Part shown: one piece after another, positions 12,887-20,764 of the stretch
Layout: each line of letters begins with the position of its first letter
Position numbering within the stretch: the stretch's first letter is position 1
Assembly (NCBI GenBank): GCA_949282255.1
Contig: CASDPA010000003.1
Span: 62,001 to 126,000, forward strand
Direction: 5' to 3'
From: an uncultured Spirochaetales bacterium
GTDB lineage: Bacteria; Spirochaetota; Spirochaetia; Sphaerochaetales; Sphaerochaetaceae
DNA length: 64,000 nucleotides
Notes under the pieces: generated by a model
The model's database searches: none
The model's input: only the letters and a program-made list of their open reading frames with translations
What the model was told of the DNA's origin: nothing
Position numbers and translations under genes: made by a program

Positions 12887-13210
12887 ATGAAAAATCAGAA
12901 AAAAGGTTTACTCAGCCTGGCCGATCTCTGGGCACTGGCTGTAGGACAGGTGATTGGGGCTGGGGTGATTACCACGATCGGGCCAGCCATGGGTTTGACA
13001 GGGCCATCAGTATGGCTTGCTTATTTTGCTGCTATAATATTGGGCTTGATAATCAATCTGCCGATAATGGTGTTCTCATCAATCACCAAGTTTTCAGGCG
13101 GGGATTATTCGGTGATCAGCGGGCTGGGAGGCGAGAGGCAGGGCGTGGTGGTGAAGATAGGAAAGGGGGCCTACAGGCTGGTCTGCGTCAATGCTGGGAA
13201 AAAGCCCTGA
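12887..13210 (+). pseudogene. Amino-acid permease (APC family), truncated
   Basis: The first 85 or so residues are a good match in form to APC-superfamily permeases: the start LLSLADLWALAVGQVIGAGV carries the conserved glycine-rich first helix (GQVIGAGVITTIGP), and a second helix and SGGDYSVISGLGGER follow. After about residue 88 the similarity stops and the frame ends at 107 codons, where about 450 is normal. The rest of the gene is missing and its tail overlaps the 3' end of the convergent S41 gene by 23 bases, so a deletion joined the two. A usable ribosome site (AAGGAG) and the divergent LysR gene remain. A functional 107-aa protein is unlikely. Confidence 0.8.
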
Positions 13211-16732: not shown

Positions 16733-16963
16733 ATGGCTAGAAGATGTGAAATTTGTGGCAAAGGTACAATCAGCGGATCCGTCGTACCCCGCAAAGGTCA
16801 GGCTAAGAAGGCAGGTGGTGTTGGACAGCACATCGGCGTGACCAAGAAGCGCGTTTTCAGACCAAACCTTGTTTCCGTCAAGACACTTATAGATGGCACA
16901 CCGAGAACCATCAAGGTTTGCACACGTTGTCTGAGAAGCGGCAAGGTTGTCAAGCTCGTATAA
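16733..16963 (+). CDS. rpmB: Ribosomal protein bL28
   Basis: Large-subunit ribosomal protein, 76 aa, from the ATG at 16733 (MARRCEICGKGT), with an AAGGTGG site nine bases upstream; a longer frame from 16682 has no support. It is the zinc-ribbon form with two Cys pairs, CEIC at the start and CTRC near the end. Typical L28 features are the basic GGVGQHIGVTKKR stretch and NLVSVKTLIDGTPR. It stands alone, not next to rpmG, and is closed by a strong terminator at 16986-17015. Confidence 0.96.
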   Translation: MARRCEICGKGTISGSVVPRKGQAKKAGGVGQHIGVTKKRVFRPNLVSVKTLIDGTPRTIKVCTRCLRSGKVVKLV

Positions 16964-16985
16964 TGCGGATTTTGATCGGAAAGAA

Positions 16986-17015
16986 GGGCAGAACATATGT
17001 TCTGTCTTTTTTTTT
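16986..17015 (+). terminator. Terminator after rpmB
   Basis: A perfectly symmetric hairpin (GGCAGAACATATGTTCTGTC, one G-U pair) followed by nine T, starting 22 bases after the rpmB stop. Confidence 0.85.
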
Positions 17016-17104
17016 CGTTTCTCCTTGTGGAAAAACCGTAGATTTTGCATAATGCGTAAAAGGCCTTATTCCGTTACGGCTTTTCTTAAAGGGGGCGGTT
17101 GTCC

Positions 17105-19498
17105 ATGAAATACAGAGTGCATGCCTTTGAAGGAGCCATGCTTGCCGCAAAAAGCGGGATTTCCAGGCTCTTGCAGCTTCATAACCAATCATCTGAGGAT
17201 GTTCAGATATATGTGCTTTCTCCCGTAAGGCGCAGTGAGATTGCGCTTTCTTCTCTTTTAGAGAAGGCGGAGAGCAAGGACGAGCGCCTTTGGGCTCAGA
17301 TTGAGAAGATCCGCAGCAGTTGGCTGGAGCTGGCTCAGAATATTTTGAGTGAAGATGAGCTTTCCGGTGTCAATGAATGTGTCAATTCCTCTTTTTCCAA
17401 GATTGAAGATGTTTTGAAAGCTGTCTGGCTTTTGGAAGAGGCATCTTCTGTCACAAGAGACTATCTCGATCTGATGACAAGTTATTTTCTTGCTGTCATT
17501 CTCTCTGCCTTGTTTTGCAAGAACGGCATATCTTCGGCAATAATGGAATCCGGGGATGCGGTGGGACGTACAGGTTTTGATTATTCTGCGGTCTTTGTTT
17601 ACGGAAAGCTGTTGAGCCCTGCAGGAAAAGAGGGGCAAATGGATGAGGAAGGGGAGAGCGAGTATACCGCTTCTTTGATTGCGTCCGGGCTTTCGTGCCC
17701 TCTTACATTCTGGAATCACAGGTCTCTTTTGTGCAGTGCCAGCATCAAGGATGTTCCCGGTGCGCATGTGATCGGCTCAATGAGCTATGCCGAAGCCACC
17801 GAGCTTTCTTTCTTCGGGGCACCCATAGTCCATCCACATTCCTTTTTTCCTGCAATGGAGAAGAACCTTCCGATCAGCCTACGCTATTGGCCGGATATAG
17901 AAAACGAAGGAACTCTTGTGGAGGATGGACACGACGATCCGTCTTCTGTTGTCAAGGCGTTCAGTGTAGTTAGAAATGTTTCCTTGATCAATGTCGAGGG
18001 CAGCGGACTGTCAGGTGTTGCAGGTATTTCCAGCCGTCTTTTCTCCGCCCTGTGTGCCGAGGGGATAAGCGTTATTTTCATTTCTCAGGCATCCAGCGAG
18101 TATTCCATTTGTATAGCGGTACGCAAAAATTGTTGCCAGAAGGCTGTGAAGGTGATCAGAAGCGAATTCAAAGAGGAGCTGGAGAACAGGAAAGTCAGCA
18201 GCATCGAGGTGGAGAACGATTGTGCCATCCTCGCCGTTGTCGGTGATAACATGACCGGATCAGTCGGTGTTGCAGGCAAGTTCTTCTCATCTCTTGCCAG
18301 AGCCGGCGTGAATGTGAGAGCGATTGCGCAGGGCTCGAGCGAAAGGAATATTTCCGCTGTCATAAAATCCGGGGATTCCACAAAAGCCCTCAGGGCATTG
18401 CATTCCGTGTTCTTCCTTTCTGCCCAGACCTTGTCAGTCGGCCTTTTCGGGCCAGGCAATATCGGGGGTACTCTGCTGGATCAGATTTCGAAACAGTCCG
18501 AGCGTCTTAAGAAAGAATTCGATCTCGATATCCGCATCAGGGGGATCGCCACCAGCAGCAAGATGCTTTTGAGCGAGGAAGGGGTGGATTTGAAGAATTG
18601 GCGCAGGGAGCTGGAGCTGTATGGCGTCCTTTATAATGAAAAGATCTTCATGGAGCACATTGCCGCTTCCTATTATCCACATAAGGTCATAATCGACTGC
18701 ACCTCGTCGGAGGAGAGGGCGTTAACATATAAGAGCCTGCTTGATTCAGGCTTCCATATCATCACACCAAATAAAAAGGCTTCCAGTGCAAGGTACGGAT
18801 ATTACAAGAGTCTGATCGAGACCTCAAGAAGCACCGGGTATAAGTTCTATTATGAAACCACCGTCGGGGCGGGGCTTCCAATCATAACCACGCTTAAGGA
18901 TTTGCGAGAGACCGGGGACAGGATATTGAAGGTCGAGGGAATGGTGTCTGGAACACTTGCATGGCTTTTCAGCCGTTATGACGGGACCGTGCCATTTTCG
19001 GAGCTCGTGAAAAAAGCGCGGGAGATGGGGTATACCGAGCCTGATCCGAGAGATGATCTTTCTGGAATGGATGTTGCAAGAAAAACTGTGATACTTGCGC
19101 GCGAATTGGGCTATAAGACAGAGGTTTCCGATATAGATATCAGAAGCCTTGTGCCCGAAGAGCTCAGAACCGCCAGCAAAGAGGAATTCTTGGATAGGCT
19201 GGACATTATGGATGAAAAAATGGCCAAGCTGTACAATAAGGCAAAAGAGCGGGGTATGAAGCTCCGCTATGTCGGCAAGGTCGATTCGGGAGTCTGTTCG
19301 GTCAGCCTTGCCGAGTATCCGATGGACCATCCTTTCAGCCAGGCGGATGGAACGGATAATGTCATCGCTTTTACGACGGAGCGCTATCTGACACAGCCTT
19401 TGGTGATAAAAGGCCCAGGGGCCGGACCGGAGGTGACTGCAGCCGGAGTGTTTGCAGATATGTTACGACTCGGACAGTATCTGGGGTCGAGAATATAG
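17105..19498 (+). CDS. Homoserine dehydrogenase with degenerate aspartokinase domain (ThrA-like)
   Basis: 797 aa from the ATG at 17105, which has a GGGGGCGG site seven bases upstream. It aligns by eye with ThrA end to end. The homoserine dehydrogenase half (about 455-797) is complete: VGLFGPGNIGGTLL, IIDCTSSEERA, ITPNKKAS, ETTVGAGLPII, EMGYTEPDPRDDLSGMDVARK. Two ACT-type segments (about 290-450; GSGLSGVAGISSRLF, ASSEYSICIAV, SVGVAGKFFSSL, QGSSERNISAV) are retained. The aspartokinase part is not: KFGGTS is replaced by AFEGAM, the GRxGSD loop by GESEYTAS, and TDVDGV by NHRSLL. It should reduce aspartate semialdehyde to homoserine but probably cannot phosphorylate aspartate. thrC follows nine bases later. 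Confidence 0.9.
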   Translation: MKYRVHAFEGAMLAAKSGISRLLQLHNQSSEDVQIYVLSPVRRSEIALSSLLEKAESKDERLWAQIEKIRSSWLELAQNILSEDELSGVNECVNSSFSKIEDVLKAVWLLEEASSVTRDYLDLMTSYFLAVILSALFCKNGISSAIMESGDAVGRTGFDYSAVFVYGKLLSPAGKEGQMDEEGESEYTASLIASGLSCPLTFWNHRSLLCSASIKDVPGAHVIGSMSYAEATELSFFGAPIVHPHSFFPAMEKNLPISLRYWPDIENEGTLVEDGHDDPSSVVKAFSVVRNVSLINVEGSGLSGVAGISSRLFSALCAEGISVIFISQASSEYSICIAVRKNCCQKAVKVIRSEFKEELENRKVSSIEVENDCAILAVVGDNMTGSVGVAGKFFSSLARAGVNVRAIAQGSSERNISAVIKSGDSTKALRALHSVFFLSAQTLSVGLFGPGNIGGTLLDQISKQSERLKKEFDLDIRIRGIATSSKMLLSEEGVDLKNWRRELELYGVLYNEKIFMEHIAASYYPHKVIIDCTSSEERALTYKSLLDSGFHIITPNKKASSARYGYYKSLIETSRSTGYKFYYETTVGAGLPIITTLKDLRETGDRILKVEGMVSGTLAWLFSRYDGTVPFSELVKKAREMGYTEPDPRDDLSGMDVARKTVILARELGYKTEVSDIDIRSLVPEELRTASKEEFLDRLDIMDEKMAKLYNKAKERGMKLRYVGKVDSGVCSVSLAEYPMDHPFSQADGTDNVIAFTTERYLTQPLVIKGPGAGPEVTAAGVFADMLRLGQYLGSRI

Positions 19499-19507
19499 GA
19501 GGTTTTT

Positions 19508-20764
19508 ATGGATTACGTTTCTACCAGGGATAAGAACGGAAGAAGATATACAATACGTGAGGCAATCCTCATGGGGCTTGCCCCTGATGGAGGGCTTTTC
19601 GTGCCGGTTTCATTTCCTGAAATTCCTGGGGATTTTACGATGGAAAAAGGGTTTGCATATTCTGCCAGCCAGCTTCTTTATCCATATTTCGAAGGTGATT
19701 TGGAAAAATCCGAGCTTGAGGCCATATGTGCCGATGCATTCAATTTCCCACTTTCCATGCCGTCAAACGGTGAAAAGGCCACTCTTGAGCTTTTCTGGGG
19801 TCCCACATGCGCCTTCAAGGATTTCGGCGCACGGTTTCTTGCCTGTTATCTTGAGAAGCACCTTGAAAAGACAGGGGAGGACATGACCATACTGGTTGCC
19901 ACCAGCGGTGATACAGGAGGGGCTGTTGCCTCTGCTTTCCATGGACGCAAGCATATAGAGGTAAAGGTGGTTTTCCCTAAGGACAGGGTTTCCGAAAGAC
20001 AGAAGCAGCAGTTGACATGCTGGGACGGGAACATCTCTTCTTTCGAGGTCGAGGGGACCTTTGACGATTGCCAGAGAATGGTGAAGCAGGCATTTATGGA
20101 TGGGGGCTATGGGAATCTCAGCAGCGCAAACAGCATAAACATTGCAAGGTTGCTTCCCCAGATGACCTATTACATCTACTCATCCTTCCTTTATAAGGCC
20201 AGATATGGCAAGCTGCCGGTTTTCATCATCCCTTCTGGAAACGTGGGCAATTCCACCGGATGTTGCTGGGCGAAGAAGATGGGTGCTCCGATTTCAAAGA
20301 TTGTTTTGGCTGTGAATGCCAACCGCACGATCCCCGATTATATCGAGAGCGGTGAGTACGAGCCAAGACAGAGCATACATACTCTTGCAAATGCAATGGA
20401 TGTCGGTGCTCCGAGCAATATGGAGCGTCTCATGGATCTTTATCCGACCTGGGAGGAGTTTTGCAATGAGCTCAGCTCTTATTCGGTAAACGATTATAAT
20501 ATCAGGCTTTCCATCAAGCAGGTCTACGAGAATGAGAAAAGGATCATCTGCCCTCATACCGCATGTGGCGAGTATGTCAGGAACGCGTATTTCCCCGATT
20601 CACCGACAGTGGTTGTGGCAACTGCGCATCCTGCAAAATTCGAGCATATCGTGGAACCCATGCTGGATGTCCGAGTCCCGATTCCCGAAAGCCTATATAA
20701 GCTTTTCGAGCTTGACAGCAAGTATTGGGAGATCAGCGCAAATTACAAGGCGCTTTTCGACTGA
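19508..20764 (+). CDS. thrC: Threonine synthase
   Basis: PLP enzyme that converts O-phosphohomoserine to threonine, 418 aa. The start is an ATG after AGGAGG. The N-terminal segment YVSTRDKNGRRYTIREAIL and LAPDGGLFVP are typical of the long (E. coli/yeast) subtype; the PLP lysine lies in CAFKDFGARFLA, with TSGDTGGAVASAF and PSGNVGNSTGC for phosphate and cofactor contact. It follows the ThrA-like gene by nine bases, so the two form a threonine operon. No homoserine kinase gene lies in the window and must be elsewhere. A strong terminator ends the operon. Confidence 0.95.
   Translation: MDYVSTRDKNGRRYTIREAILMGLAPDGGLFVPVSFPEIPGDFTMEKGFAYSASQLLYPYFEGDLEKSELEAICADAFNFPLSMPSNGEKATLELFWGPTCAFKDFGARFLACYLEKHLEKTGEDMTILVATSGDTGGAVASAFHGRKHIEVKVVFPKDRVSERQKQQLTCWDGNISSFEVEGTFDDCQRMVKQAFMDGGYGNLSSANSINIARLLPQMTYYIYSSFLYKARYGKLPVFIIPSGNVGNSTGCCWAKKMGAPISKIVLAVNANRTIPDYIESGEYEPRQSIHTLANAMDVGAPSNMERLMDLYPTWEEFCNELSSYSVNDYNIRLSIKQVYENEKRIICPHTACGEYVRNAYFPDSPTVVVATAHPAKFEHIVEPMLDVRVPIPESLYKLFELDSKYWEISANYKALFD

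Follow-up and report, generated by a model that had tools for sequence, protein, structure and literature searches.

Domain organization of the thrA-like gene

Why would a fused aspartokinase/homoserine dehydrogenase gene be kept when the active site of its kinase half has gone? This question is raised by a thrA-like gene within the window, which is the whole 64,000 nucleotide stretch of DNA from an uncultured Spirochaetales bacterium that was analyzed. The open reading frame lies on the forward strand at 17099/17105-19498 and encodes a ThrA-like protein of 799 amino acids; an alternative TTG start exists at 17099, and the ATG at 17105 is the likelier of the two. The initial annotation had placed at 17105-18450 a homoserine dehydrogenase (HSD) carrying a dead aspartokinase (AK) domain that keeps its ACT sensors. 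Those coordinates do cover the AK and ACT part, while the protein itself continues to 19498. The features of the locus are as follows.

16733..16963, + strand: rpmB (ribosomal protein L28), conserved upstream neighbor, by synteny
16978..17015, + strand: terminator-like hairpin between rpmB and the thrA-like gene
17105..19498, + strand: fused pseudo-aspartokinase / ACT-ACT / homoserine dehydrogenase (thrA-like) gene, from Pfam and NCBIfam profiles and full-length relatives
17105..17944, + strand: pseudo-aspartokinase domain, residues 3-282; no PF00696 match, AK fold in the model, active-site residues lost
17123..17140, + strand: AFEGAM replacing KFGGTS, residues 9-14, by motif alignment
17651..17674, + strand: GESEYTAS replacing GRNGSDYS (GESEY is residues 185-189), the catalytic Asp becoming Glu188, by motif alignment
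17714..17731, + strand: NHRSLL replacing TDVDGV, residues 206-211, by motif alignment
17951..18418, + strand: two ACT domains, residues 285-440, from Pfam, with both threonine-motif glutamines
18086-18088 and 18329-18331, + strand: the threonine-motif glutamines Q330 and Q411, respectively, in the ACT pair
18428..19483, + strand: HSD domain, residues 444-795, with catalytic E647, D653, D658 and K662 kept
19508..20764, + strand: threonine synthase (thrC), the next gene downstream on the same strand, by synteny

Using Pfam, we found that the window protein matched the HSD (1.2e-49), NAD-binding and ACT domains, and that it had no match to AA_kinase even at E<=1. A genome-wide search with PF00696 listed five other kinases, and the thrA-like protein was not among them. 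The NCBIfam model for bifunctional aspartate kinase/homoserine dehydrogenase I (NF006959) scored the protein at 817 bits against a cut-off of 726. Among the features of a ThrA-type enzyme, we found the AK-ACT-ACT-HSD order, an HSD catalytic domain (PF00742, PF03447) with the conserved E, D, D and K, and two ACT domains with threonine-motif glutamines; the AK catalytic residues (K and GG of KFGG, E of GE, GRxGSD and TDVDG) were absent. The three motif changes described in the initial annotation (AFEGAM, GESEYTAS and NHRSLL) were present in the motif alignment, and its broader picture of lost kinase motifs next to retained ACT glutamines and HSD catalytic residues held as well. The window protein is the sole HSD in its own genome.

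A search upstream of the thrA-like gene gave no support for leader-peptide or T-box control, with Rfam finding nothing there, and a reading frame considered as a possible leader was rejected as it is rpmB. Elsewhere in the window, a 107 amino acid open reading frame at 12887-13210 (+ strand) matches an amino acid permease over its first ~70 residues (PF13520, E value 3e-4), the rest being unrelated, and is probably a broken or truncated permease gene.

Loss of the catalytic motifs across the clade

The dead set, by which we mean proteins with decayed AK motifs, comprised 72 full-length rows of the window's family (f1), in which a few genomes occur more than once, together with 14 rows from five sister families. 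These were compared to 78 intact relatives that included ThrA, MetL and LysC. None of the 86 full-length dead rows kept the full set of AK catalytic residues. The lysine of KFGG was found in 77 of the 78 intact proteins vs 4 of the 86 dead proteins, and the catalytic Asp in 78/78 vs 0/86, with Glu occupying that position in 85 of the dead rows. Family f1 has lost the lysine, glycine loop, substrate Glu, GRxGSD and TDVDG altogether. Two of the sister families, f22 and f25, show partial decay, where some proteins retain the lysine or remnants of GRxG or DGV and the Asp of GSD is already Glu. Both ACT glutamines were present in all 86 full-length dead proteins, and neither was found in MetL.

The initial annotation had proposed looking for the same loss in other spirochetes, and we found it in many of them. 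The dead form appears restricted to spirochetes, as judged from 69 non-spirochete relatives among the matches listed; the motifs were intact in all members of this sample, one of which (L133) lacks the N-terminus. Since the loss recurs in the 72 family rows and 14 sister rows, and since the domain can be superimposed in full on solved aspartokinases in a structural model (see below), it reflects neither a sequencing error nor a chance misalignment. A sequencing or frameshift artefact was likewise rejected, as every relative checked shares the loss and the reading frame is uninterrupted. Judging from its sequence, this gene product almost certainly has no kinase activity.

Structure of the dead half

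We built an AlphaFold2 model of the monomer from 28 sequences, with a mean pLDDT of 89 and only one poorly predicted stretch, the short loop 174-180. In structural alignments of the model, residues 3-438 superimposed on M. jannaschii aspartokinase in its threonine-bound form (3c1n; Z 36.5, rmsd 2.3 over 422 residues), residues 282-437 on the regulatory domain of ThrA (6mx1; 41% identity, rmsd 1.5), and residues 439-793 on the yeast HSD 1ebf (Z 42). The domain as modeled is an aspartokinase by fold, despite the lack of a PF00696 sequence match. A profile alignment to the M. jannaschii enzyme (MjAK) is collinear, and the residues that it puts at the active-site positions are non-catalytic. The initial annotation would have been undermined had the catalytic lysine or ATP loops lain elsewhere in the domain; a relocation of the catalytic motifs was rejected, as the profile and structural alignments to MjAK span the domain and the motifs were not recovered at any other place.

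Selection on the dead half

For close pairs, dN/dS was 0.04-0.10 in the dead half, 0.007-0.04 in the ACT domains and 0.01-0.08 in the HSD domain. The values for the dead half are therefore above those of ACT, roughly at or above those of HSD, and far under neutrality. Frame breaks were nearly absent in the family, with one internal TAG (in genome G082). Identities among dead and among intact proteins were compared using pairs matched on HSD identity. The ACT domains were unaffected (61% dead vs 60% intact), while most conservation was lost from the ATP/lid segment, which fell from 66% in intact to 32% in dead proteins; the drop was from 64% to 47% in the C-lobe and from 38% to 29% in the N-lobe. 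Six residues (W65, E69, W110, E188, F288 and S289) are conserved in the dead proteins and are variable or replaced by another residue in intact ones. The dead half is a pseudoenzyme maintained by selection, in which the fold is kept, the catalytic residues are lost and purifying selection continues; the loss of activity is itself a prediction. The clade-wide extent of the motif loss, its apparently single origin (below), the purifying selection on the domain and the physical shortening seen in some genera (below) all go beyond the initial annotation.

A separate aspartokinase and the pathway neighbors

If the fused protein does not phosphorylate aspartate, another enzyme would be expected to do so, and the initial annotation had suggested a search of the genome for one. 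This search found L003, a separate intact aspartokinase of 434 residues and of the PRK09034 type. Across the family, 105 of 110 genomes with the fused protein had at least a second aspartokinase match, and in the sister families a separate kinase accompanied the dead form in 16 of 17 genomes. All separate kinases inspected kept KFGG, GGSD and (T/S)DV. Three of the six spirochete genomes with an intact fusion had no other aspartokinase match. The association of dead form with separate kinase fits a release of constraint after the other kinase took over, a direction of cause that we infer.

Homoserine kinase was not found in the window's own genome, where TIGR00191 (ThrB) gave a weak match under its cut-off and TIGR02535 gave none, and where HSD and threonine synthase are both present. 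Either a non-homologous enzyme fills this gap or the gene lies in missing sequence.

Origin of the dead form

We produced an unrooted tree on the ACT and HSD columns of 50 dead proteins (full-length, sister and shortened forms) and 24 intact fusions, those of spirochetes included. MetL was rejected as an outgroup because its long branch joins the shortened forms, so MetL was left out and the origin was taken from the unrooted split. In that tree the 50 dead proteins fell on one side of a branch with bootstrap support of 100/100 and the 24 intact fusions on the other. When the HSD columns were used alone, again without MetL, one label change still sufficed, with a bootstrap value of 52/100. The gene neighborhood is also conserved: of 67 family loci, 66 have thrC and 60 have rpmB next to the fused gene, rpmB also adjoins 13 of 14 dead sister loci, and the order rpmB-thrA-thrC is maintained across families. 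The possibility that the dead gene is a paralog standing next to an intact ThrA was rejected, given the single HSD in the genome and the same rpmB-thrA-thrC locus across families. The simplest reading is a single loss followed by progressive decay, with an apparently single origin. Two genomes (G095 and G064) each carry two full-length dead fused genes in the assembly, from either a duplication or a mixed bin.

Shortened forms and genera without the fusion

Three genera (g10, g14 and g15) encode shortened fused proteins of about 650-750 residues, with ~195-243 residues before the first ACT domain compared to the usual ~290. Little of the N-lobe is left in these proteins, which still have a C-lobe element, ACT and HSD. 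Of the six shortened proteins, five lack one ACT glutamine, the second in L066-L068 and the first in L070 and L071; threonine sensing is thus probably not universal. The genomes concerned are small and partly draft and their sequences are fast-evolving, so that these details need to be read with care.

The separate aspartokinases of g14 and g15 (L236, L237 and L238-L240; genomes G043, G030, G014 and G013) have lost all or most of the ACT region and are 330-349 amino acids long with intact catalytic motifs. Their regulation may have been lost or may be supplied in trans. Several small-genome genera of f1 (g8, g9, g11, g13 and g19) lack the fused gene, and most of these have a stand-alone HSD of ~390-400 amino acids and a monofunctional aspartokinase.

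Proposed role of the dead half

In the plant bifunctional enzyme, threonine binds two ACT glutamines; binding at one mostly affects the kinase, and binding at the other mostly the dehydrogenase. Both glutamines occur in every full-length dead protein and are lost in MetL, and together with the threonine sites of the plant enzyme this leads us to propose a threonine-inhibited HSD. Q330 and Q411 are 81 residues apart, the same spacing as in E. coli ThrA, and their conservation and the fold predict that HSD is likely under threonine control. The protein is probably a threonine-sensed HSD whose former kinase half serves as a structural or allosteric module. The separate PRK09034-type kinase would perform the first pathway step; threonine would bind the ACT pair at Q330 and Q411 and inhibit the dehydrogenase; and the pseudo-kinase half would be retained because folding, oligomer assembly or signal transmission by the ACT pair depends on it. 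The C-lobe adjoining ACT would be the part most needed, the N-lobe being dispensable in reduced genomes.

The half could instead be a scaffold for folding or oligomerization only, with threonine regulation lost and the ACT motifs kept for structural reasons. The five shortened proteins that have dropped one ACT glutamine yet keep the fusion are consistent with this, as is the better preservation of the C-lobe beside the ACT pair than of the N-lobe. However, neither glutamine motif varies among the 86 full-length dead proteins, the ACT domains diverge no differently than those of intact fusions, and we regard a pure scaffold as unlikely.

Two further proposals give the dead half a partner. In one, which we think rather improbable, the former kinase has acquired a new job and uses W65, E69, W110 and E188, conserved in the dead clade only, to bind a new ligand or the separate aspartokinase. 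Threonine sensed by the fused protein would then control the first and third steps of the pathway in trans. In the other, the dead half might regulate the separate aspartokinase within a hetero-oligomer, by analogy with dead paralogs elsewhere such as the trypanosome prozyme. The nearly unbroken co-occurrence of the dead form with a separate kinase would suit such an arrangement, as would the conservation of W65, E69 and W110 in dead proteins only and the g14 and g15 genomes, where the fused protein retains the ACT domains that the separate kinase has wholly or mostly lost. Most separate kinases, however, keep an ACT region of their own, and the fused protein and the separate kinase come from different AK subfamilies with about 25% identity where alignable, which makes regulation through a hetero-oligomer quite doubtful.

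The series of stepwise decay, from f22 and f25 (lysine and parts of GRxG or DGV left) to f1 (all gone) to the shortened proteins of g10, g14 and g15, might suggest that the half is evolutionary ballast, made redundant by the second kinase and now being lost. This is very unlikely in view of the dN/dS values, the near absence of frame breaks and the residues conserved specifically in dead proteins. That the domain remains a kinase for aspartate or some other amino acid by means of non-canonical residues can practically be dismissed, for despite the complete fold and a nearly invariant Glu for the catalytic Asp, f1 is missing every one of the catalytic elements, and it is the ATP/lid segment whose conservation has fallen furthest below that of intact enzymes.

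Comparison with known systems

The preferred reading, a threonine-sensed HSD with a retained pseudo-kinase module, can be set beside several known proteins. E. coli ThrA (NF006959) shares the AK-ACT-ACT-HSD order, the HSD and ACT domains, both ACT glutamines and the downstream thrC; it differs in that the window protein has lost the AK active site and the window cluster has no thrB. E. coli MetL (aspartokinase II / homoserine dehydrogenase II) has the same architecture, but with the opposite pattern of loss to the window protein: its kinase motifs are kept and both ACT glutamine motifs are gone. The threonine-sensitive MjAK (3c1n, 3c1m, 2hmf) shares the AK-ACT fold, but its active site is intact and it has no HSD. 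The trypanosome AdoMetDC prozyme is a catalytically dead paralog that regulates a pathway enzyme (PMC5201418); it resembles the window protein in having lost catalysis and kept the fold and a regulatory role (proposed here for the window protein), whereas the dead domain of the window protein shares one polypeptide with a second enzyme of the same pathway that still works. A search of open-licence papers found no description of such a protein. The parts are known; what is new is their combination, its fixation across a clade and the graded series of decay.

Since the window protein passes the curated NCBI cut-off, genomes of this clade will be annotated with an aspartokinase activity that the product of this gene very probably lacks, which is a trap for annotation. 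With forms that grade from intact to partly decayed, dead and finally shortened, it becomes directly testable what portion of the AK domain the dehydrogenase requires for its assembly and feedback control. The clade offers a natural separation of the two jobs of a textbook allosteric enzyme, with catalysis lost from one half while sensing and the dehydrogenase stay.
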